From: Saksenaea vasiformis B4078
Lineage: Eukaryota; Mucoromycota; Mucoromycetes; Mucorales; Saksenaeaceae
Direction: 5' to 3'
Assembly (NCBI GenBank): GCA_000697055.1
Contig: JNDT01002239.1
Location: forward strand, 1-64,000
DNA length: 64,000 bases
In this document: in pieces, positions 27,479 through 64,000 of the stretch
How positions within the stretch are numbered: the stretch's first letter is position 1
Layout: every line of letters begins with the position of its first letter
Notes under the pieces: generated by a model
Seen by the model: the letters and a program-made list of their open reading frames with translations, nothing else
Database searches by the model: none
Told to the model about the DNA's origin: nothing
Made by a program: the position numbers and the translations under genes

Positions 27479-30222
27479 ATGCGGCAGGGCATTTCCTTTC
27501 TCCTTTACTTATTGGTAGCAGCAGCCGTAATCCGTGCCACTCCTATCATTAAACGTGACCCGAACCGCGAATATTACACTTTACATTTCCCCCGAGGTCA
27601 TCTCGACGATACTTCCGCCGATGCCGCCATTACCATTGCCAAGACTCTCGGTGTGAAATATGAAGGCCCTGTAGGAGAGTTAAAAACCTACTTCGCAGTT
27701 AGTAGACCGCGCAACACTTTGGAACGACGTGGAGAAGATGATCTGCTCCTGGTTTTCGAAGAACACAAGAAACGCAATCTACTTAAACGCGATGTAACTT
27801 GGACCAAAGTCGAACGTATGGATAAACAGGCACTAAGAAAGAGAGAGAAACGTGCACCTATTCCACAAGATGGTAAACTAGTGCTAAAAGATGTTCAGAA
27901 GGTGCTGGACATCAAAGATCCTGGGTTTCCACACCAGTGGCATTTGGTAAGCCGTTCTATTTCTGTAACCATACTAATGACTGAATAGGTAAATCAAAAA
28001 TATTTTGGAAACGACAATAACTGCACTGGCGTTTGGAAACAAGGTACAGACTGGTTGTCTCTATAGTTATATTTATTACCTTTTTATGTAGGTATCACTG
28101 GTCACGGTTCGACAGTGGCTCTACTGGATGATGGTTTAGAGTATGAGAGTGATGATCTTCGGGAAAATTTTGTGAGTTTAAACGGAAGTCAGGACGCTGT
28201 CTGTTATTAATAGCATCGGATCTAGTATGCCGCTGGTTCTTATGATTTCAACGATCATGTTGATTTACCCAAGCCAAAATTGTTTGACGATAACCATGGT
28301 ACCCGCTGCGCTGGTCAAATTGCAGCTGTGCGTAATAATGTCTGTGGCGTTGGTATTGCGTACAATGCCAAAGTAGCCGGTAAGCTGATAGATTCTAGCC
28401 ATAAATTTGACAAGTAAATGGGATTTAGGTATCCGTATATTGTCGGGGGCTATCAATGATATTGACGAAGCTACGGCACTCAATTACAAATACCAAGAAA
28501 ACCAGATTTTCTCTTGTTCGTGGGGACCAACGGATAATGGCGAAACAATGGAAGCTCCAAAAGGCATACTAGCCGATGCATTTGTTAATGGTGTTAAAAA
28601 CGGACGTGGCGGCAAAGGGTCTATTTACGTTTTTGCAACCGGAAACGGAGCACAGGCTGGTGACAATTGCAATTTCGACGGCTATACGAACAGCATCTAC
28701 ACAATCACAGTTGGTGCAATTGACCACAGAAATAATCATCCTCCTTATTCGGAAAGTTGCTCAGCTCAGCTGGTGGTTACTTACTCCAGTGGCGGTGGCG
28801 AATACATTGTAACTAAACTTGTCTCTTCTACGTGTCCATTTCACTAATATGATCTCTAGTATACCACCAACGTAGGTAAGAATGATTGCACAGAGTTACA
28901 CGGAGGGACATCTGCTGCTGCTCCCAACGCGGCAGGTGTGTTTGCACTTGTGTTATCCGTGCGACCAGATCTGACCTGGCGTGATCTGCAACATCTCTGT
29001 GTCCAGACAGCGGTTCCTATCAGTCTACAGGATGATGATTGGGCAGCGCTGCCATCGGGCCGGATGTACAGCCATAAATTTGGATACGGGAAATTGGATG
29101 CCTATGCCATTGTTGAAGCTGCCAAAACGTACAAGCTTGTCAACAACCAGACACAATTGGAGATCGTAGCTTCCATGAAGAAGACAGCTATTCCGGACTC
29201 TTCCTTCACTAAGAAGAAAAAGCCGTTGCGAAGCACTGTTACCGTAACCGAGCAAATGGTCAAAGCAGCTGGTCTGCGTCGACTAGAGCATGTTACTGCT
29301 ACCGTAAACATCGAACATCAGCAACGAGGAAATATCGCCATCACGCTCCAAAGCCCTAATATGGTTGAATCTGAACTGGCCACCGCGCGGCATGCAGATA
29401 GAAGCACAGAGGGTATTCAGGATTGGAAGTTTATGTCTGTTAAGCACTGGTAAGCAGGATTCTTTCTATTTTCGATGGTACTGACTTTGTTCCAGGGAGG
29501 AGGATCCCATCGGTAACTGGACACTTCTTGTGTATGATGTCAACAACCCGAGTGCAACGGGACAGCTGCTTAACTGGACATTAACCCTCTGGGGTGAGAT
29601 GGAGACTTCTGCTGGAGAGAAGCCTGCCGAGACTTCCACAAGTCACGTCGTCTCTGTTGAACCTTCTACTGCCCACACCACCTCGACACACTTGACAACA
29701 TCAAAGATCGATGCCACGAAAACGAAGACAGAGGTCGAGACAACAACAACAGTCGCTGACACGCATATTCCAACCCGGCCAACAAAAGTGAAGCCGACAA
29801 CTCAAGCAACTACCACGAAGGATGCCAGTACTACAGCAACAACAGACATTAAGTCATCAGAAAAAAGTGACAAAGAGGAAGCAACATCTGAGGCTAAGCC
29901 GTCAGAAGCCATCCATAAAGATGAAGCGACTCCTGAAGCACAAGAATCTCAACCATCTTCATCAAAATCCACCAGTACAGCATTGTATGGATTTATAGGC
30001 ACTGGTGCCATCTTAGGTTTGGCAAGCGGTATGTATCTTTACAAACGCAGAGGATGGCGCTCTTCTGGGTCTTCGAACGATGATATACCCCAGCATCTAC
30101 GAGCGGATGGATACGAATTCAGCGAGCTGCCGCCCGAAGAGGAGGATGAGGACGATAGAAACCACGCAGATAATGATAACCAGCCATTATTGAGTGGTGA
30201 ACCAAGGCATGTCCAGAGATAA
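27479..30222 (+). CDS. KEX2: Kexin-like proprotein convertase (Kex2 family)
   Basis: Seven exons (27479-27946, 27989-28043, 28092-28171, 28226-28379, 28429-28808, 28860-29449, 29496-30222) join in phase to 817 residues, almost the yeast Kex2 length. The order is signal peptide, prodomain with KR sites, subtilisin-type catalytic domain, P/homo-B domain, Ser/Thr-rich stalk, one transmembrane span (LYGFIGTGAILGLASGMYLY) and an acidic cytosolic tail. Catalytic residues are Asp187 (LLDDGLEY), His225 (DNHGTRCAG) and Ser397 (HGGTSAAAP), with the oxyanion Asn in ATGNGAQAG. It cleaves after Lys-Arg/Arg-Arg in the late Golgi. A tail tyrosine in DGYEFSEL may serve in Golgi retrieval. AATAAA lies at 30227-30232. 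Confidence 0.96.
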
Positions 30223-30923
30223 ATTTAATAAACCTGCAACCATCTATTCTTTTTATCATCAAAAGCATCTACATCAAGGGATATAGCGCCACACTAATTA
30301 GAATTTCGATTAGCATATTTCACTTATAGTAACAATGTAGTTCCGTATGATACCAAGGAAGTAGCTGAGACTTGTGAAGCACACATTGCTGGCTCGTCAT
30401 CAATTGAATTACATGTTTACGGATAGATATCGTTTGGACAGTACTCAGATATGCTTACGTAGAAGGAAAGTTTTCATGTGGCGATCTAAAAATGAGGTTG
30501 TGCTCCTACCTAGAGAGTTTCTAAGGATACTTTGATACTTCTTAAAACGTCTTAATAAAAATAATCTACCACAATGATCTTTCTTATAAAATACTCTCAT
30601 CGTAGAATGCAGTTCATGATACGCTTTACTAGTGGGACACTACGGTGGAACAATAGGTTATGGGGCAACCTACTTTGGAACACTTTTCTCGAGGACTCTT
30701 CACCTGGGAAACATTGGTTCTTTATATTGTAGTTGATATCACACTAACCTGTTGCTCAAAACGCAACAAACTAACACTGAATTTGGCATCTGCTCCATTT
30801 CAGAAAGGTGATGCGACGTCCGCTGTGCAAATGGCTCACAGACGGTGTCTGGATAGCCCTAATTTCTCGTTCCAAAGCGTGACTCGTAAGACCTAACTCA
30901 AATAGTGACCAGATAGCAGTGCC
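30223..30923. other. Convergent spacer; possible omega-RNA side of the Fanzor element
   Basis: No protein gene is recognised. On the minus strand this is the 3' flank of the Fanzor gene, where the guide (omega) RNA of such elements normally lies. I cannot delimit a structured RNA or a terminal repeat by eye. Confidence 0.3.
30227..30232 (+). terminator. Poly(A) signal AATAAA of kexin gene
   Basis: A canonical hexamer lies 5 bp after the stop codon. Confidence 0.5.
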
Positions 30924-33900
30924 TCACTGCTGAGCTGTCCGAGACAGCGCTTCGGGACGAGACGTTAACTGGCATCCGGATTCAATGTAACGGACAAGTA
31001 TCTCACGCATGTTACGGCCGGCATTGACGTCTCTGTTCCAAAACTAATGTAGTGTTAGAGACTTAGCATATCCTACTAATCGTATTACTTGCCAAAGGTG
31101 TCATCTCTCCTTGTCTATCATATACGCACTGGGGACACAGCCGAATGGGATAGGCGATATTCCGAAAATCGGTTGGAGCTATTAAGGCGGTTAGCCAGAG
31201 ACAGTGTACCAAGACTGTACCTAGACTGTACCTAGTTGACGCCTGTCAGGGCATTCGCATGTAGCGTGCAATAGTTCATCGTTTTCGTCGAGACAGTATT
31301 GCCGCTTTCGCTTGTTTGGGCGCTTGCTTAGGTACTTTTTTCTAATGAACGATTTCTAATGTTTAGACTTTCGTTGTGTTTGGTCGCATATTATACATAC
31401 TTGTGGTTGCAAATGCGTAGGTTAGGATCACGCAGCTGGATAGTATCGTTATGACAGACGCTACAGACCCTGATGGTCTTATACTCATCTACACATATCA
31501 CCGGACATCGCCGAGCCAAGACTTTGCGAAACGTCTACATAGAATAGTAATTAAAAATTCAATATCAACATGAATCAAATACTTGCCTTGACTGGCAGAG
31601 GACCATACGTCGTATACGTGCCGGTATGTAGGTCCGCGTCACCGTAAGCGATTAGAACCCGGCGCTGCTGGCGTCTTCGTTTTCGGTGCCTCTTGTTCTC
31701 TTTGTGTACATGTTGGATAGGTGGATATTCGCATAACGATTAATGCACTCGTATGATGCATTGATGGGCTTACCAAACTTGTATTAGGATAGAAGCCTGC
31801 AGCTTGATCCGCAATAACGTCCATTGTCATTTTTCTCGCAGATTCCAGGAGCCCACGTCTTTCTCTGTGACGATAATGACGATTGTATTCCTCAGTCCTA
31901 GCAAAATCCTTTTAGAGCGGACATATACGAGCGATATATATTCAGAAAGTACCTATTTTTCTCCGCAAATTGCGTCGAAAGATAGCTCTGAAACCCTAAA
32001 AGCGAAGCCTGCGTGCTTGGGTGCTCCGCCAGACGATCATACACCTGTTGCATATTCGCAGCTAAGCGGCTCTTCCGTTCCATTTGGAGACTCCAGGTGA
32101 ATTTGGAGCAGTTCCTGGAAATTGATATGGTTATCACACCATGACGAACATCATCTTGCTATATTACTGGTAATAATCATTCGTGACCGTAAACGTATGG
32201 TGCTGCCTTGTTTGCCGATCACGTAAGTTATCCGCCGTGTCAACAGTAGTTACCAGGGATCGGATGCCTATGTGATATATAGCTATCACTGAATTTTTTC
32301 AAGAGCGGGTGACATACCTGGGTCAATCCCCACTATGCGGGTCAATCCGGGGTCTAGGTCTTGTGCTGCAGTGAAACATGTGGGCTCCTTGTTTAAGTGG
32401 TATAAACCACGTTGGACAACAGACATGTCTCTATTTCGGGGCAAGAATTGGAAGTCTCTTCTGGATGAAGGGTGGGAAGCTGAGACGCAGATATCCCATT
32501 AGTTGCTTCATAATGTGGTAACCATTAACCATACCTCGATTCGGCCTACGAGACTTGAACCTAACGGCCGCCATCACGCCGTCTGTTTCGAAACCGTAGT
32601 CAAACTCGAATTGTGGAAGCTATTCATTGTTTTCTCCTAAACAAAGAACGATGAGATCAGCATTTACATGTGATCGATTATAAGCAAACCTTGCAAACGC
32701 CAACGCCTAGGCATGATGCGATCTATACAAAAAATCTCTTCCCAAAGCTACTCGCGGTAAACTGCGCTCCGATGCGCACTGGCGAAAACACGGGGATTGT
32801 GTAAGGGAGGCTTCTGGAAGGCTAGTTAATTTTCATTTACTTTTTTTAGATCACTTACGAACAGGTGGTCCGGGAGGTCCACAGCAACACCTTGCAAAAT
32901 CCAGTATAAGTTCGGGTGGGAAACCGGCACATATCCTATAGCGTGCATGTTAGACCATAATACCTAAGTAGAGGCTTTCGCTCATTCAACCATACCTATT
33001 TGATTTTTTGCTAACGGTAGTAGCGACCAGCCTTCTCCATCATACTCGTTCGATTGTTTAAGCAGCTGGAAAGAAAATTGTAGCATGGAGGGAAGTAAAC
33101 TTTCCTTCTGCTCATCGCTTAAATCGCCTGAAATGTCCGTGTTTCTGAAGGTTTCCTTGTAGGTCCACAGAAACTCGCTATAAGACATGGAGTAGTCAGG
33201 GATACACAATCACGAAATGGTTAACAATCATATAAAACCTACGTATAGAATGCTTCGAACTCTGCAACCGCATCAGTACCAAACGCTGGCCATGCGTTAT
33301 GGTCGAAATTGTTCTGTGCCAAGACTGCGTTCGTGCAGCGAGTTGCTGGAATTACAAATATCACATTAGCTACTGTAGAGGAAATGAATAAGATATAATA
33401 CCTAGACCATTCACATTGTGGTATTGGGTTTGAGGATACCGTTCGAAAAGGCGAAGAAAGAATGCTTCAAATGTTCTTCTCATGTAGACGGGGAGATTTG
33501 TCGTGACATGTTCAAAGGTGTCTACGAAGGCGAAAAAACGTAAATATACAACTGCCTTTTTGCTTCTTTGATATTAAGCGCTCACTGGCAGTTATTTTCC
33601 CTGCAAACGAAGGAGCCAGGTCTCTTAAGACGTGCGTCAGTGTCGGGAGAGAATAGTTTTCTAATAATACATGGATATCCTTAAAAGGCGTAAGTCCTTT
33701 TATGTACCTTCTGATGTTTGTGGATCGAATCTGCACAAATTAAACACGGTCTCAAAAGTTTCTCTCAGGTCAACGCACCATCGATATGCGGACTACAAAG
33801 TATACAGAAGACAAAGAATTTCAGCCTGCTGATTGATCAATTATAGTAACATCATACAAAAGCTACTCTGACATTGGTGCCGGGATCTCGCTGCAATACC

Positions 33901-34312
33901 ATCCTGAAAGCAGCAGTGAAGAAATATTCCTTGGAAATCGGAGGGAAAAGTTCTATCTGGCCCTCGAGCCAACGGCGAATGTGTAGGTTAACGAGAAACA
34001 TTGCACACTGGCAAGCAGCGGCGTATTCTTCCGCAAGTGCACGAAAAGCAACCTACATCAATGAATTTAGCTTTTGTCCAGAGAAAAACAAGATACACAT
34101 GCCCTCAGGTGCTTATAGTCCTCTTGCAGGAAATTGGACAGCTTTAGTTTACGCACAAACGAATAATCACGACCAGGCAGGTCGGATAGAGGGCTATGCT
34201 GATATCCATATCGTCTCCGACGGCGAGGTGGTTCCTGAACTCCTCCTCCATGATAAAGGCAAAAACGACAAAGTAAGAGAATGAGGACTGAAATGTGGTG
34301 GTCGTCCCTATC
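30924..34312 (-). CDS. Fanzor: eukaryotic TnpB-like RNA-guided nuclease, 18 exons, possibly decayed
   Basis: Exons, 5' to 3': 34312-34097 (no ATG found), 34052-33867, 33730-33586, 33521-33402, 33345-33243, 33177-32996, 32935-32859, 32813-32690, 32636-32535, 32479-32318, 32267-32168, 32114-31953, 31897-31774, 31697-31587, 31534-31401, 31341-31232, 31178-31126, 31043-30924. All junctions keep phase; total about 776 codons. Motifs: RuvC-I IVGIDPGIRSLVTTVD, RuvC-II region VICVDEYKT, a zinc ribbon (CSVC, then LCPQC) and RuvC-III FWNRDVNAGRN. Basic clusters (NKRHRKRRRQQRR, KRPNKRKRQ) could be nuclear signals. Fanzors are omega-RNA-guided DNA endonucleases carried by eukaryotic mobile elements. Two TAG codons (32750-32748, 32622-32620) interrupt exons 8 and 9 unless an alternative splice path is used. 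One intron is GC-AG (donor GCAAGT at 31586). Confidence 0.85.
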
Positions 34313-34363
34313 TTATAGTTCACAATACAAAGAAATCACTGTTGTTGATCTATCACCAGATCT

Positions 34364-34476
34364 CTTAAGAACCATACCTAATCCAACCGGCATCTTTTGG
34401 AGCCATAGCTTGTGCAACAGCAAAACCCCTAAACCTTATTGATCTCCAAGCCACGAAATTTGATATGGCTCCTAAG
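34364..34476 (+). mobile_element. MITE-like element, family A, copy 2
   Basis: This 113-bp unit has termini CTTAAGAACCATAC and ATATGGCTCCTAAG and shares internal blocks with 6194-6315. It lies about 50 bp upstream of the first recognisable Fanzor exon and may have separated that gene from its start. Confidence 0.62.
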
Positions 34477-34862
34477 AAAAGGATCTATCACACCGTAGAT
34501 GTTCAATCTATCGCACCATAGATCAGACATGTTTAGGTCACGTTTTATTCAAGTCAGACATCAGCACGTCTCTTCATCTGCGGACCAACCTTCACATGAA
34601 ATTAATACCAGAGAAAATGGGTAGAACTGCTTTGAGACCGTTTATACAGATTTATTCAAAATCCCTATGTTGTCTTTTCCAGCTGTATCTAAGTATTATA
34701 TCTATACTAACTGAAGCTAGAGAGGCGCTGTTTTTCTTCTCGATAATAAATCATGATGATTTGACTGGCAGTTTCCTTTCTAGGCATAAATCCGGATTTA
34801 TGCACATTCGTTATTCATTGTCCAAGACCACCAGAAACATGAGTGATGAGAAATTTGGAGAC
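34477..34862. other. Spacer between Fanzor gene/MITE and DUF6729-like relic
   Basis: No gene is recognised. It probably contains decayed 3' sequence of the DUF6729-like gene. A duplicated phrase TCTATCACACCGTAGATG / TCTATCGCACCATAGATC lies at 34485-34525. Confidence 0.4.
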
Positions 34863-35930
34863 ATACTTTGGGACCTACGGATTACGTTTAGTCAAACAAA
34901 GTAGAGATAACTTACTATCTTACGCACTCTATGACTATGATCAGTGTTGAGAATTGTCCCTGGCATTGTACTCGTATGCGGATAATGGTCCATCGAACGC
35001 AATTCCGCGCAATTATTGTACATACTCGTTAAACACTTCGCACTTGGAAATGTGCCGTCGTAACCGTTTCTATCTCCAAACGAGGAAAACACTGGATTTG
35101 CTATCCTCATTATATTAGAAACTCCATCCAGACTCCCCGCTGTTCTTCTGTCACAATTCGTTTGGAATTGCGTGGGAAATGACGTTAGCTAAGCCATAAC
35201 AAAGAAAATGTCGTGTCGAGTAGTACAAGGTCCAAATAAAGAGATGCGTACTGCACGACATATTCATTAGAAAACCAGCTAACAAATATCAGCAAGATAT
35301 ATCGTAACAGATGATGATGCTCACCGATGGTTCGAGAAAATGGACCAGGTCCTATTCCGGAATGGAAGCAGCTACGCATCATATTCATCAACTCTCGAGA
35401 TACTGCTCCGCGGTGAGAAAGTATCGCAGGAAATTCTTCGGATAAAGGGCGCGGTAGATTTTTGATAATTTCATTGTCATGTCCCAAGTATGATCGACTG
35501 CACCATTTGCATTGATATCTATACGACATGATATAGAAATTGTCGTGCACATCGAAAACTTTCTTGCAATTGGTCTGTCTGCCCAGCCACGTACGCGAAA
35601 ACCTCCAGAGCATTGAGGGCACTTGAAATCCTTGATGAGCAGATGGACTAGCCACACAAATACGCGAGAATAGTAAAGCGGTGAAGGGTCCAATCTTGTT
35701 TGGCCACGGAGAGCAAAATACGGACTAGGTGGTGTCACCCAATAACTCTGATTCTGATAGCATTTGGGAATATTTTTAGGTGATTGTTCCATTTCCGGCT
35801 TTAGTCTATCTCGCAAGGTAGCCAGGTACTGAACGTGTAGCGATCCATCTGACGCCTCGTCATTACTGTTGTCTTCGCTTGGAGGAAGTCCCTCTGGATT
35901 TGATTGCCAATTCCATTCTAGTGACTTCAT
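34863..35930 (-). pseudogene. DUF6729-like zinc-ribbon/transposase-derived protein, frameshifted relic
   Basis: The frame from ATG 35930 ends in a zinc-ribbon-like stretch (DFKCPQCSGGFRVRGWADRP). The homology continues in another frame after one missing base near 35557-35562: FDVHDNFYIMSYRYQCKWC, then LPRPLSEEFPAILSHRGAVS and MRSCFHSGIGPGPFSRTI. Farther down the strand 35087-34900 encodes FSSFGDRNGYDGTFPSAKCL and TILNTDHSHRVRKI, which looks like the first-Asp region of an RNase H-type nuclease. The paired CxxC motifs and order resemble fungal proteins catalogued as DUF6729, many of them repetitive and transposon-associated. The gene stops making sense below 34863. Family assignment is from memory of the pattern, so moderate. 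Confidence 0.6.
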
Positions 35931-36512
35931 CAGACGAGCCGGTTGTTAATCGTTAGCATTAATGTATATTTCACGAGAGTTCAACAGCAATACGTACACA
36001 TAGTGAGACCAGATGTTGAAGCCGAAGGTGTTGGATCTTGCTGAGATGGCTGGCTTTGATTGCAATCCATTATAATTATAAAAAAATTTACAGATTAGAG
36101 TCAAAAAGGTGGACGCTATATATAAGCTGTTTCTATGAGGAACCAAAAGCATTTGCTTGTCAGTTTTGTTGCTTTATATGGTAGGGCTGCACCCCAAAAA
36201 GGACCGATTGTTACGGTCAACAAACTTTTTAATATCAGCACTTTGTTTTATCATATTTTATTCGCCAGCGCGGAAGGTCCGCACTTTGTTCTAAAGAGAT
36301 GATTGGGGTAGCGGGTACTCCGCACTTTGTTCTAGAGCTGTCATTCGCTCAAATTGGTCCAGGCATACGCTCAAATTGGTGCAAATCGCGAATGCGGGGT
36401 GCAAATACTGTGACAGTCCCGCAGGCCTTGCAAATTTTGTTTATCGCCGTGGACCTGGCATCTTCCTCTACGGTAAAAAATAACACCTGTCTCCCCACTC
36501 TCCGATTAAGCC
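35931..36512. other. Spacer and QCR7 promoter
   Basis: On the minus strand a short ORF beginning at 36070 (MDCNQSQPSQQDPTPSAS) may be a remnant first exon of the DUF6729-like relic. The right part is the QCR7 promoter with paired direct repeats. Confidence 0.45.
36276..36400 (+). promoter_or_regulatory. Paired direct repeats upstream of QCR7
   Basis: TCCGCACTTTGTTCTA occurs twice (about 36279 and 36326), and CGCTCAAATTGGT occurs twice (about 36348 and 36369). They lie 110-240 bp upstream of the QCR7 start. They may be binding sites for a regulator of respiratory genes; this is inference. Confidence 0.5.
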
Positions 36513-39756: not shown

Positions 39757-42700
39757 ACGTTTAGTGTCCACGTTTATTTCTCTTTCCTACATTCGCTTAC
39801 TTCCCACCATTCTGCATCGGTTTCTTCCATTCATAATAGAACATTTTTGTTTCCGCTACTGTCCTCGTTCTCTCACACTAATTTCGGTAAATTGATTTTG
39901 ACAGATATTCCTTTTATTCTTGTCTGTCTAGCGCCATCATAATATTATTTTATCGAAAATCCCTTCTTTCGCTATTGCGAATAAAATTTGCATCAACCTA
40001 AGAGTCCAGGTTCGCCCTAAGTTCAACGATGCGCCATGCATAATCAAAACAAACTCAGTTCAGTCAGCGTAAACATCCATACCAGCAAGCACGTTTGACA
40101 TACACGGGGGTATGCTTAATTACCCTGTAAGGTTAATTCTGCCTAACAATAGGTTCTATAACGCGCACTATCGACTCGTGCGGTAAGGAAAATTCTTTGC
40201 AGAACACTGAAGACGATGCAACGTTTGACGAGCACTTATCATGGGACACCAATGAACAACCTAGTGAATACTGTGTTTGAAATGAGCGTTTGCGTCAGCT
40301 ATATGCCCTTCTGCGCTCAACCTGAATTGCGTTTTGCACTGGAAACTGATCCGTCTTGGTGCTGAGCAGTGGTTTATTTTGCGTTAATTCAACGAATAGT
40401 TGGCAGCTGGATGACCCCATTTTTGCATTAAAGTGCTTCAGTGATGGGTTTTTCGACATCCTTGCGGAAGGCAGTAAAAACGTCTCAAGGTAAGGAAAAT
40501 GTCCCGTTGAAACAAGAAATCGTTTTTGCATTGAGGCACTTCAGTGATGGATTCCCAGTATCCCATCGGAAAGCAGTAAAAACGTCTCATGATAGGGACA
40601 TGTTCCACCCAGAATAAGCCAATTTCCATCGTTTAGCCTGCATGACCTCCGTCCCGAACCGTCCTGGCTGTGGTGTAGCCCCTCGTTCACCACCAGGTAA
40701 GCAAGTGTTGTTGCACGCTGCCTTATCCAACTTCAACAACAGAACCTCGCCAGACGTTGCATCGCTTCAAGTCCTCTGCACGGCGTACAAACTTGTCGCT
40801 GGCCGCCGTCGCCAGGATCCCCTCCATGCTGGCACCACCGGACCTAGGTGCGGGCTTGGCCCAGGCTTCTGGCCTGCTCACCTTCGGGGTACATAAACTG
40901 ACATCAAAGTATCTTCCATTTACTAACCGTGAGTGATGTTTTTATGCTGCTCCCATAAATTATGCGTCCATCTGGGGACCAAGTTGATGCAAGTGCAGTA
41001 TCATTTTGTCGTCAATTCGTGAACTAATGGCTGCACATTCAATTCTTTTCTTAGCGCAAACTCGGTTCTTCATGGACGCATAGTTTATTTAGAGTAGTAA
41101 AAAGTTTTCAATAACAGTAAAATGAAGGATATTGTTTCTTTTTTCCTTTGTGGTGAGACAGGGGCTACACATATAACACACCCAGCTGAGACAATGTGGG
41201 ATAATCATGCAGACTAAACGATAGATAAGAAACTTACCTTTGTTTGGGAAGGAAATCCAAGCGCTTACCCCGGGTTGTTTCTTGATGGACCATAACCACA
41301 GAATAGGAAGTATTCATGCAGTGATGATTTTAGGGGGGGAGAGCCACTCTCTTAAACATTTCAACATGAGGATGATAGAGTTTCAGAATCTCACCGCTTG
41401 CACAATCAACAGCCACTGAAGGCAGTTTACTTATGCGCAGGGTTACACGTCAAGTGGATGCCTAAAAAAAATGCGCGCTTTAGAATAAATTCATATTCGG
41501 TTAATACAACTTACCCTGTTCTTCAGTACGAAGCGGTTCTCAAGCAGCACAAATATCGATGAAAAATGCACTATCTTGCGTCGTACATATATTAGGTTAC
41601 GCAAACGCATGCGCATTCCAATATCTTTTATTGAGCTTCCATTTCGATACGATAACCATTCAGGACCGCTACATATAAAAACGATTTGCATTTGACAACT
41701 AATCTATGCCCATTACTCAGATGTGCAACATATCTACTTGTACCGCGCTTTGTTTTGATTGGATCATTCAACTTTGTCACCCGTCAGAGAGACTGTTCTT
41801 CCGTTTCGGCTTATCGATTAGCTGTTGGTCTTCCTACCAAACGAAGAACCAACTGTGAGAAGTACGGTTTTGCACCTTATGGGATGTGAAAACATTCAAG
41901 GCGTACAGAATCATGGCTGACTCCTTCAAACGGATGCATCCTGTTAGTCTCCTGTTAGCTCACGGTAGAATTTGCTGATGTAATGTGTTCCTTAGCTTTG
42001 TCGAGTAGCAAACTGGGAAGTTGCAAGCAGCAACTGCATGATTGGATAATGTCGCAACACGCATCAATGTTTGCCAAACGTCTGTGGAGTGGGACTCAAT
42101 CCCCTGGTATAATCTCTTCCTAAGAAGCATGATAATTAAGAAAGAGACACTGTTCCACCGTGCTGCTGGTATATGATTTCTATTCGTGATACACAAGCGG
42201 ATGTAACGAACGCCTTGACTCAGCCGTCTTACCTTGCATCCAGATCAGATGTTTGGTGCCCCTCACCTGAGCCAGTTACTATGCTTAAGAGATAGATGTT
42301 AAAACTCTGTGAAAGTAAAAATACTAGTAATTGTAAGGACAAACGTCTTCACTGCAGCAAGAGAGTTTATAAACGCGACGATATCCCTGATGCATGCGGC
42401 GTCTACCCTACCATTACAGGATCAATTTTCCGTTTGAATAGTATAGCAGGTCTTCATGTGTCTTGATAGCAATGGCACATTACATGGGTTATGGGTTTAA
42501 CCTAGACACTGGATATGCTTCCGCTTGAACAGTTTGAAGTATTACATGATACTAAATACGTTGACGACTGTTCTTGTTTCTTTGGTCGTAACTATATATG
42601 CCCTCTCCTGCACACATGGATCACCTTTACCACAGGTTTCCGCGCCGTGCACTCCCATATCCAAGAAAAGATCTTCTCTTCGGTCAACGGAAATATATCT

Positions 42701-60908: not shown

Positions 60909-61853
60909 AGTACAAGGGAAAGGGAGATGATCGGGAGAAAAGCTTGGCTTCGGTGATTTTGCAATCTCACTGTTGGGAATGACGTTGTATTTGACCTTTT
61001 ATGGCAACGAATGACCATAATACCAGCTGATAACAACGATTAATTAGTATGACAACTATGTTGACGCATATATCGGCAGAAGTAGTATTCGTTTTATATT
61101 GATATGTCAGTTCGTACTGGACGAATGCTCACGTTAAACACTGTGTAAACGTTTTATTTGATTAATTCATCTATCTCGTGGACAATGTTAGAACTTCTTG
61201 CCTTTTATTTATAGGTGTTGTTTCAATTGTCTATTCCGAAACCTTGGTCATGGGCTCCCCCCTCCATTCAATTCTAGAAGCTAAATCTTTCTTATATTTA
61301 CAACAATTCACAACTATCAAATAGCATATTGTCATTATATATATGTCTATTCTTCAGTGTTGCAATTGAAAAATTAAGGCAAAGACTGTTAGTCAGACCT
61401 GAGAGATATAGAACATTATTACAGTGGCAATGGCTTTTCAAAAGCCATCTTTCTATAGAACATCTTGTTGTCTACAATTGCATAAATAAATTAACAGTAA
61501 CAAAACTCATAGTAGAAACAAAAGATTAGTTATATATCTTGTCTCGCGTTTGAACGCTGAAAATTAATGATTCCTTTCGGAAGTTGAAGTTGAGTCCGGG
61601 CCGGACTTATCCTTCTCTTGGTGGGTGGTCGTATCTCGTTCATCTTCGAAGAAAGCCAGTTCCTCCTCCTTCTCTTATCCAGGCCGATTTAAGGTAACTT
61701 CATCCTTCATTAGAATGAGTGCAATGCTATGGATGGGATTTGATGGGACAAAATGGATTCTATCCGAAGTTTTGTTTTTGCACATTTCCCGATGGAGGAC
61801 AGGAATTGGAACATAAAACGCTGATCGATTCATTCTTTCTAGGGTAAAACAAC
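60909..61853. other. Spacer between CYSTM and eL15 genes, with AT-rich island
   Basis: About 61280-61550 is AT-rich and contains a 66-codon ORF (61329-61529) of foreign-looking composition. The right end is the eL15 leader, probably with a 5' UTR intron ending at CATTCTTTCTAG just before the start. Confidence 0.45.
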
Positions 61854-62468
61854 ATGGGTGCCTACAAATACCTGCAAGAGCTTCAAAAGAAGAAGCAGTC
61901 TGATGTCCTTCGTTTCTTGCTCCGTGTGAGATGCTGGGAATACAGACAGCTGAATGTCATTCACCGTGCTTCCCGCCCTTCGCGCCCCGACAAGGCTCGC
62001 CGTATGGGCTACAAGGCTAAGCAGGGCTATGTCATTTACCGTATCCGTGTTCGTCGCGGTGGCCGCAAGAGACCCGTCCACAAGGGTGCCACCTACGGTA
62101 AGCCCGTCAATGAGGGTGTGAACCAACTCAAGTACCAGCGTTCGCTCCGCTCCACCGCTGAGGAGCGTGTTGGTCGCAAGTGCGCCAACCTCCGTGTCCT
62201 CAACTCCTACTGGATCAACCAGGACGCCACCTACAAGTACTTCGAGGTTATCCTTGTCGACCCCTCGCACAAGGCCATTCGCCGCGATCCCCGCATCAAC
62301 TGGATTTGCAATGCTGTTCACAAGCGTCGCGAAGCCCGTGGTCTTACTGCCATCGGCAAGAAGTCTCGTGGCAAGGGCAAGGGTCACCGCTACACCAAGA
62401 CCAAGGGCTCCGGCCGTCACGCCAGCTGGAAGAGACGCAACACTCTTTCTCTTCGCCGCTATCGTTAA
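61854..62468 (+). CDS. RPL15: Large ribosomal subunit protein eL15
   Basis: A single exon of 204 residues covers the whole family length, from [17 protein letters not shown] to [11 protein letters not shown]. Landmarks are [32 protein letters not shown] and [13 protein letters not shown]. eL15 is a core protein of the 60S subunit contacting 5.8S and 28S rRNA. Codon use is strongly biased (C-ending), as expected for high expression. A poly(A) signal lies at 62515-62520. Long open frames on the other strand are shadows. Confidence 0.98.
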
Positions 62469-63037
62469 AAAACTGGCCATTGCATTGGTCGGTAACCCAT
62501 ATTTGGTCGTGTGCAATAAACATTTTGAGTTGTTAAAAAAAAAAGGAGAAGGAAAAGACTGGATTCTGCATTGAAATTATGGGCACTGTTTCTGGTTAAA
62601 ATGGACATACTAAGAAGAAGAGATATGAAGGATATGCATGCATAATGCTACAGATCGTTGAGTGGCACGTTTGGTCCAGTGCTGCGACAATATAGACATA
62701 TTTAGTTCAGCTATGGGGAATGTTTGCTCTTAAAGTGTACTGCAATTGTTAAATCTTGTCAGCGATGTGCCTAAAAAAATCCGCGCTTCTGAAAGCAATG
62801 CCCGAACATGTCGGGAAATGTGGCTTGGCCATACTCGGAGTGAGGAACTGTCCGGTTAACCCTTAGGGCAACAGCCAAGCTTGGGATCCTTCTTTTTCCT
62901 CCTCATCGAGTATTTGGTACGTACCATAATAGGATGAAAAAACGAGTACATGCGAGAGGGAGAGATAGAAGAGGATGGATGAGTTATCTTGCGGTTGGAT
63001 GGAAAGTATGGAAAGCTGATTTACGTTGTATCTAGCC
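62469..63037. other. Spacer and uL16 promoter/leader
   Basis: No gene is recognised. TTGTATCTAG directly before CCATGG at 63036 looks like a 3' splice site, so the uL16 gene probably has a 5' UTR intron. Confidence 0.45.
62515..62520 (+). terminator. Poly(A) signal AATAAA of eL15 gene
   Basis: A canonical hexamer lies 46 bp after the stop codon. Confidence 0.5.
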
Positions 63038-63688
63038 ATGGGTCGCCGTCCCGCTCGTTGCTACCGTTACTGCAAGAACAAGCCCTACCCCAAGAGCAGA
63101 TACTGCCGTGGTGTCCCCGATGCCAAGATCAGAATCTATGACTTGGGTCGCAAGAAGGCTCACGTCGACGATTTCCCTCTTTGCGTCCACTTGGTCTCCA
63201 ACGAGTACGAACAGCTTTCCGCTGAAGCTCTTGAAGCTGGCCGTATCTGTGCTAACAAGTACATCGCCAAGACCTCTGGCAAGGATTCCTTCCATTTGCG
63301 TGTCCGTGTCCATCCCTTCCACGTCACCCGTATCAACAAAATGTTGTCTTGTGCTGGTGCCGATAGATTGCAGACCGGTATGCGTGGCGCTTTCGGCAAG
63401 CCCAATGGTCTCGTCGCCCGTGTGAACATCGGCCAGATCATCTTCTCCGTTCGTACTAAGGACTCCAACAAGGCTGTTGTCATTGAGGCCTTGAGACGCT
63501 GCAAGTACAAGTTTCCCGGTCAGCAGAAGATTATTATCTCCAACAAGTGGGGTTTCACTCCCTTGACCCGTGAGGAATACGTTGAAGCCCGCTCCGCCGG
63601 TAAGCTTAGACCCGATGGCTGCTACGTCAAGTTCGTCCCTGAGAAGGGCTCTTTGGACAACTACTTCCGTATGGCTTCCAGAGCTTAA
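63038..63688 (+). CDS. RPL10: Large ribosomal subunit protein uL16 (Rpl10)
   Basis: A single coding exon of 216 residues begins [19 protein letters not shown]. Landmarks are [39 protein letters not shown] and [13 protein letters not shown]. uL16 is loaded last onto the 60S subunit, next to the peptidyl-transferase centre, and is checked during final 60S maturation. The frame is open four codons upstream, but only the ATG at 63038 gives the conserved N-terminus. AATAAA lies at 63730-63735, after a T-run. Confidence 0.98.
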
Positions 63689-64000
63689 TTTTTTTTTTTT
63701 TTTTGTGCGGCATGAATTAATTTGTCCGAAATAAACTCTTGCCATTTCGTTCTTGCAAAACAGATTGCATAGTTAATTCTTTTTATCATTGGTGAAGGTC
63801 AGCACCTGAGTGTTTTATGTAACAAGTATCTTCAGTTTTTCTATAGAAAAACAACTTGTATCTGATGCTGGAGGTCTTTCTCTGCAATGAGCGTCGGAAC
63901 GGCACGGGCCTTTCGTTTTCATTCGCTGCCGTGTGAGCCACTACTGACAAGATATGTTGCGGCTCGCGTTGACGTCGCGATTACAGACCGTTTTACATTT
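63689..64000. other. 3' flank of uL16 gene to window end
   Basis: It contains a T-run (63690-63704) and the poly(A) signal. Nothing else is recognised. Confidence 0.45.
63730..63735 (+). terminator. Poly(A) signal AATAAA of uL16 gene
   Basis: A canonical hexamer lies 42 bp after the stop codon. Confidence 0.5.

Follow-up and report, generated by a model that had tools for sequence, protein, structure and literature searches.

The 64,000-nt window analysed here (Saksenaea vasiformis B4078, assembly GCA_000697055.1, contig JNDT01002239.1, positions 1 to 64,000) contains a copy of a repeated DNA transposon in which a truncated DUF6729 gene is followed by a multi-exon Fanzor1 gene. The element has imperfect inverted repeats, and 8-bp target duplications flank several of its copies. 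In the same copies, the Fanzor is under purifying selection and the DUF6729 remnant drifts nearly neutrally. We consider it likely that the window holds a recently dead copy of a non-autonomous cut-and-paste transposon, with Fanzor1 as its sole selected gene and a DUF6729 remnant at its 5' end; this judgement takes in the mechanism proposed below.

A repeated element with a selected and a drifting gene

The window was compared with its own genome (38,675,218 bases in 666 contigs; the contig of the window is cited in C527 coordinates). As a result, 55 matches were obtained, several of them longer than 5 kb at 87-95% identity, which ended at window position 30833 on one side and near 36367 on the other. 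The sequence-only reading had implied a single resident gene, and the locus proved instead to be one copy of a mobile element. Other copies start with GGCTGGCAG and finish with CTGTGAGCC, and, when read by eye, the two ends pair as inverted repeats at 14 of their first 21 bases. The 19-base 3' terminus was found at 20 genome places with at most two mismatches (12 exact) and the 26-base 5' terminus at 19 places with at most three (12 exact), with no occurrence of either backward control. Target duplications were judged in the eight copies with both ends read. Perfect 8-bp duplications were present in four, namely L039 (scored by script), L038, L040 and the window copy (all three by eye). The duplication of the window copy was left unscored by the script because the 5' terminus is altered; since GGCTGGCA is absent from this end, the duplication lies ten bases further out. 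The carrier is a eukaryotic DNA transposon and not an IS607 element. A MuDR-type Fanzor element, with 9-bp duplications and MuDR-like ends, was ruled out by the 8-bp duplications, which also contradict a Helitron, an element type that makes no duplication and encodes RepHel; RepHel itself was not searched for. The 5' terminus of the element also occurs at C431:58045, with Fanzor matches (61517-63370) of a 55-73% identical family about 3.5 kb downstream of it; several Fanzor families may share one 5' end.

Selection was assessed from differences at the three codon positions. Between the Fanzor genes of L040 and L050, the latter a more distant relative at 71% DNA identity, positions 1, 2 and 3 differed at 129, 88 and 334 of about 760 sites each (rates of 0.17, 0.116 and 0.439), and introns at 361 of 1,002 sites (0.36). 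L040 and the window copy differed at 33, 17 and 90 of about 762 sites each and at 92 of 1,016 intron sites. Indels between L040 and L039 numbered seven in introns and none in exons. Across all ten pairs computed, the ratio of nonsynonymous to synonymous rates (dN/dS, NG86) of the Fanzor ranged from 0.078 to 0.211. In the DUF6729 remnant, nine pairs showed near-equal differences at the three positions, as in L039 versus the window (14, 15 and 17 of 182 each) and L040 versus the window (15, 14 and 21 of 166 each). The share of position 3 differed between Fanzor and remnant in three pairs, which are not independent of one another (Fisher p values of 0.0075, 0.0011 and 0.0082).

The window copy of the Fanzor is broken. 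Exon 1 is frameshifted, exons 9 and 10 are each interrupted by an in-frame stop, and 36 nt have been lost in frame from exon 15. Thus, the sequence-only statement that all 17 junctions keep phase does not hold for this copy, which cannot make the full protein, although an intact gene had been implied. Seven of the 13 aligned copies, the window included, cover all exons; two of these (L039 and L040) are open and five are not. Both open copies carry flags in the lesion table at exon 9 (acceptor) and exon 17 (length and donor), because window coordinates were used: exon 9 of these copies begins three bases later, and their exon 17 ends past an 11-nt repeat that occurs in the window copy only. The Fanzor frame of L050 is broken too. 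Decay resembling repeat-induced point mutation was considered owing to the stops, and the private changes of seven copies showed no clear CpA bias. L046 and L051 have one common internal deletion (window 34042 to 31541) that removed most of the Fanzor, and this deleted form was probably moved or duplicated.

The DUF6729 domain of the window (PF20499) matched at C527:35314-35583 with 41.5 bits against a cut-off of 27, and 22 of the 26 matches across the genome were above the cut-off. At L058 and L059, the domain belongs to a longer gene that continues through a DHS...TDN stretch into a 3'-5' exonuclease domain (PF01612). The rest of this gene, that is, the TDN region and the exonuclease, is missing from the window element, where nothing was found beyond residue 281 of a query based on L052. 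The remnant also has a frame break inside DUF6729, with about 19 residues swapped for unrelated bases. The 5' end of the element is identical over 90 bp in L052, and in both L052 and L053 the DUF6729 gene continues beyond where the window element leaves off. Over the first 533 nt of this gene, L052 is nearer to the window (94%) than L039 is, and therefore the elements exchange parts. In L052 (C133), a Tc1/mariner-like frame adjoins the DUF6729 gene, as read by eye.

The Fanzor1 gene and its introns

The Fanzor1 gene lies on the minus strand, and 19 exons and 18 introns were predicted by a comparative exon model with hand curation (Table 1), where 18 exons and 17 introns had been claimed; the start is the ATG at 34251, not 34312. 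For this model, the window was aligned with 12 of 20 fetched stretches (L037-L048, copies in the same genome), and a second alignment comprised L050, the window and four copies. Exon chains were searched by scoring silent against replacement changes across copies. Some raw chains skipped or split exons, and the curated model is our reading of them. Of the 36 exon borders inside the gene, 29 were recovered with at least one of three homologous proteins in splice-aware alignment to the window (counted by hand); the script accepts GT donors only, so GC donors were beyond its reach. Two borders are ambiguous, namely where exon 15 starts and where exon 18 ends; the script favours 31699 and 31126, respectively. 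GC instead of GT starts three of the 18 introns of the window copy (34102, 31586 and 31092). Spliced alignment to the paralogue L057 was usable for the C-terminal half only.

Table 1 Features of the element in the window and of its flanks
Feature	Position	Strand	Remarks
DNA transposon copy, 5,535 bp	30833..36367	-	truncated DUF6729 gene first, Fanzor1 second (minus-strand order); sharp alignment ends
3' target duplication, 8 bp	30825..30832	-	same 8 bases as 36379-36386; by eye
5' target duplication, 8 bp	36379..36386	-	by eye
3' terminus GGCT..AGCC	30833..30858	-	internal hairpin CAGAC-ACC-GTCTG
DUF6729 remnant	34916..35945	-	PF20499 and stretch to DHSHRV; frame broken
Exon 1	34103..34251	-	start ATG; frameshift in window copy; GC donor; comparative model
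Exon 2	33858..34052	-	comparative model and protein alignment
Exon 3	33708..33792	-	comparative model and protein alignment
Exon 4	33586..33660	-	comparative model and protein alignment
Exon 5	33402..33521	-	comparative model and protein alignment
Exon 6	33243..33345	-	comparative model and protein alignment
Exon 7	32996..33177	-	comparative model and protein alignment
Exon 8	32859..32935	-	comparative model and protein alignment
Exon 9	32699..32813	-	start in other copies at the position of 32810; in-frame stop; comparative model
Exon 10	32535..32636	-	in-frame stop in window copy; comparative model and protein alignment
Exon 11	32318..32479	-	RuvC-I IVGIDPG at its end; comparative model and protein alignment
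Exon 12	32168..32267	-	comparative model and protein alignment
Exon 13	31953..32114	-	comparative model and protein alignment
Exon 14	31774..31897	-	comparative model and protein alignment
Exon 15	31587..31691	-	basic cluster, VLIAYGDAD; start possibly 31699; 36-nt in-frame deletion; GC donor
Exon 16	31401..31534	-	alternative RuvC-II Glu in DEYKT; first CxxC
Exon 17	31232..31341	-	zinc-ribbon insertion; comparative model and protein alignment
Exon 18	31093..31178	-	second CxxC; end possibly 31126; GC donor at 31092
Exon 19	30924..31043	-	RuvC-III FWNRDVNAGRN; stop codon

As judged by motifs and profile matches, the gene family is Fanzor1, in agreement with the sequence-only identification. 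The motifs named there (IVGIDPG, VICVDEYKT, CSVC, CPQC and FWNRDVNAGRN) do lie on different minus-strand exons, within about 34.25-30.92 kb. For motif positions and searches, the family reference was the spliced protein of L040 (778 residues). Its RuvC-I DPG, as expected of Fanzor1, occupies residues 452-454, and GIDPG is present in the window and the copies. E646 (EYKTSRVCSVC) stands six residues ahead of the first CxxC and is invariant in a six-sequence alignment; an alternative RuvC-II glutamate at this distance is a Fanzor signature (PMC10711439). The RuvC-III aspartate is present in the RD at 743-744. The Fanzor1 motif, D-X(125,275)-[TS][TS]XX-C4 zinc finger-X(5,50)-RD (PMC3627910), is found in the family (D452, T649-S650, C4 and RD743-744 in L040); the window copy has I at the second [TS] and so lacks the strict motif. 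Compared with typical Fanzor1, the two CxxC are set much further apart, and proteins P0003 and P0005 show the same enlargement. A search with L040 residues 395-778 returned seven proteins at E≤0.001, two of them with precomputed PF07282 (TNB) annotation; the best three were from Mucorales (Cunninghamella echinulata, 6.0e-42; Helicostylum pulchrum, 7.1e-32; Rhizopus microsporus, 2.7e-31). Profile comparison with known members also came out in favour: a six-sequence profile matched SpuFz1 (E 4.9e-10) and GtFz1 (E 0.0028) in the PDB. PpFz1 gave no significant match (0.89 with a single sequence; not listed at 0.1 in the profile search of the PDB). In P0005, from Rhizopus microsporus, RuvC-I reads GQNPG, with the catalytic Asp replaced by Asn. 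L057 (C419:64200-67200) is a distant paralogue in the same genome, a 772-residue intronless Fanzor-like frame with DPR for DPG at RuvC-I.

Searched in six frames with the L040 protein, the genome yielded 233 matches. Match ends were tested on 54 listed rows from diverged loci on 26 contigs (47-74% identity), from which the element's own copies had been dropped; four of the rows were L050, already used in building the exon model. Fifty-two of 76 match ends fell within three residues of an exon border, compared with an average of 10.5 for shifted borders (p 0.0016), and therefore these relatives break at the same intron places. By this test the intron positions are old and common to diverged relatives. 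Together with the intron density, this supports the suggestion of long residence in a eukaryotic genome. Introns were reportedly described in a 2023 Science Advances paper on Fanzors.

The genome contains at least 137 TNB matches in 38.7 Mb (150 of 388 candidates scored), amounting to a large Fanzor expansion. The window Fanzor locus was not among the 137 matches listed by this six-frame search, so genes with about 18 introns escape six-frame domain scans. A TNB match (7e-6) lies at the right edge of the window (63953-64000; C527:63953-64087, minus strand); along the same contig, TNB is matched again at C527:83765 and DUF6729 at C527:91768. Elsewhere in the window, a Kexin-like protease gene recognised by eye (28860-30222, plus strand) ends about 600 bp from the 3' end of the element, and 40256-41121 is a repeat with at least 22 other genome places at about 73-88% identity.

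Proposed movement and retention of the element

We propose that the element would be moved in trans by the DUF6729-exonuclease protein of longer elements, or by another DDE-type enzyme. Since movement would be as DNA, the introns would travel with the element. TnpB and published Fanzors suggest by analogy that the Fanzor may make a guide RNA from the 3' end of the element reading into flanking DNA; terminal repeats and target duplications form part of Fanzor1 guide RNAs (PMC10711439), which would fit. After excision, it could then cut the restored target site, and repair from a sister copy would return the element. Retention of this kind would favour the encoding copy and explain selection on the Fanzor alone. 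A narrower version, that the element belongs to an unnamed group with 8-bp duplications, moved by a protein of DUF6729 and 3'-5' exonuclease, and with non-autonomous members whose only selected gene, a cis-acting Fanzor, ensures retention after excision through a guide RNA with the terminal hairpin in its scaffold, is put forward tentatively, as one possibility. In the outer stem of this hairpin, L050 has one paired change relative to the window family, a hint seen by eye.

Several results weigh against these proposals. The outermost 5' bases of the window element (36368-36378) are unlike GGCTGGCAG of the other copies. Among the eight copies with both ends read, duplications were imperfect in L041 (7 of 8 bases) and L055 (6 of 8), both scored by script, and none was found in L037 or L046. 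Position 3 of the remnant was slightly the highest in eight of the nine pairs, and over the first 533 nt of the DUF6729 gene, L052 and the window differed in a constrained pattern (12, 3 and 15), from which it follows that the constraint on DUF6729 was lost recently. Pfam matched no transposase, and that the DUF6729 protein acts as one is something we infer. The last 108-120 nt folded no better than shuffles in four of four sequences and so gave no guide-RNA signal. As for the identity of the gene, single-sequence PDB searches found no significant Fanzor, and Pfam TNB scored 21 and 19 bits for the family, under its cut-off of 26.3; P0003-P0005 were likewise below it (24.7, 25.5 and 19.8 bits), and only L057 exceeded it (32.5 bits).

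The constraint between L052 and the window would also suit another account, in which the selection signal is a hitch-hiking trace from an autonomous DUF6729 element that had use for both genes, and the Fanzor looks constrained only because the copies are young, as would the fact that five of the seven full-span Fanzor copies are now broken. We regard this as unlikely, because both genes share one history in the pair of L040 and the window, yet the differences by codon position are 33, 17 and 90 in the Fanzor and 15, 14 and 21 in the remnant. Somewhat less likely still is that the Fanzor itself mobilises the element or helps transposition in trans, for example by cutting target sites, instead of keeping each copy in place. 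Such a role would agree with the lack of any other selected gene in the copies; however, a DDE-type enzyme is suggested by the terminal inverted repeats together with the 8-bp duplications, TnpB and Fanzor are not DDE transposases according to the authors of PMC3627910, and with a purely trans-acting Fanzor, broken copies would spread as well as open ones.

Two further alternatives deny either the transposon or the gene. The many introns and the purifying selection would be expected of a domesticated host Fanzor gene outside any transposon, but multiple copies with the same ends, target duplications and a broken window copy refute domestication at this locus, and its probability is very small. 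Smaller yet is the chance that short open frames merely happen to line up without a gene, a view to which two early results lent colour: codon-usage gene finding on the window gave no stable model, and the first homology search, in which 7,997 candidates were scored with the hand-joined window protein, returned none at E 0.001. It is refuted by the protein and profile matches, the recovery of exon borders, the codon-position bias and the low dN/dS. A recently dead, non-autonomous transposon copy with Fanzor1 as its only selected gene is the reading we prefer.

Relation to known Fanzor elements

A multi-exon, transposon-borne Fanzor1 is already known. Fanzor1 occurs in repeated, chimeric and often transposase-less elements of Mucor circinelloides, Rhizopus oryzae and Phycomyces blakesleeanus, and these resemble the present element in being repeated DNA transposons with predicted multi-exon genes (PMC3627910). 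Chimeras there often join a common 5' part to differing 3' parts. Their ends are unlike those described here: ROr-4, PBl-3 and MCi-4 have 9-bp duplications and MuDR-like ends, MCi-2 an 11-12-bp duplication and a Crypton piece, and MCi-5 a 6-bp duplication and a Harbinger transposase (PMC3627910). The IS4-type ESvi-1B Fanzor1 element of Ectocarpus shares the 8-bp duplication and inverted repeats, whereas it encodes an IS4 transposase, is single-copy and of viral origin, and is presented in the relevant part of PMC3627910 without DUF6729. In the parts of that paper examined, no element pairs 8-bp duplications with a DUF6729 gene. SfAV Fanzor1 is likewise encoded alone by a non-autonomous transposon, and its guide RNA takes in the terminal repeat and target duplication (PMC10711439); the window element differs in its DUF6729 remnant. 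SpuFz1, PpFz1 and GtFz1 have the same RuvC D-E-D arrangement and Fanzor1 architecture (PMC10432273; PMC11423790), although their sequence similarity to the window family is low. An Armillaria fumosa protein (P0001) pairs PF20499 with PF01612 as L058 and L059 do, in contrast to the window element with its truncated DUF6729 part only.

In the open-access literature, no paper on DUF6729 was found, and none in which selection on a Fanzor is tested. What looks new is the link of Fanzor1 to a DUF6729-type carrier, together with the unequal selection on two genes. For asking what benefit a Fanzor brings to its host transposon, a drifting and a constrained gene in the same copies provide an internal control. 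If the contrast holds with more copies, selection would see the Fanzor and not the transposase, and the retention model would become testable in a eukaryote. Should the cis-acting retention role tentatively proposed above be true, the element would offer eukaryotic evolutionary evidence for a function so far argued for bacterial TnpB.

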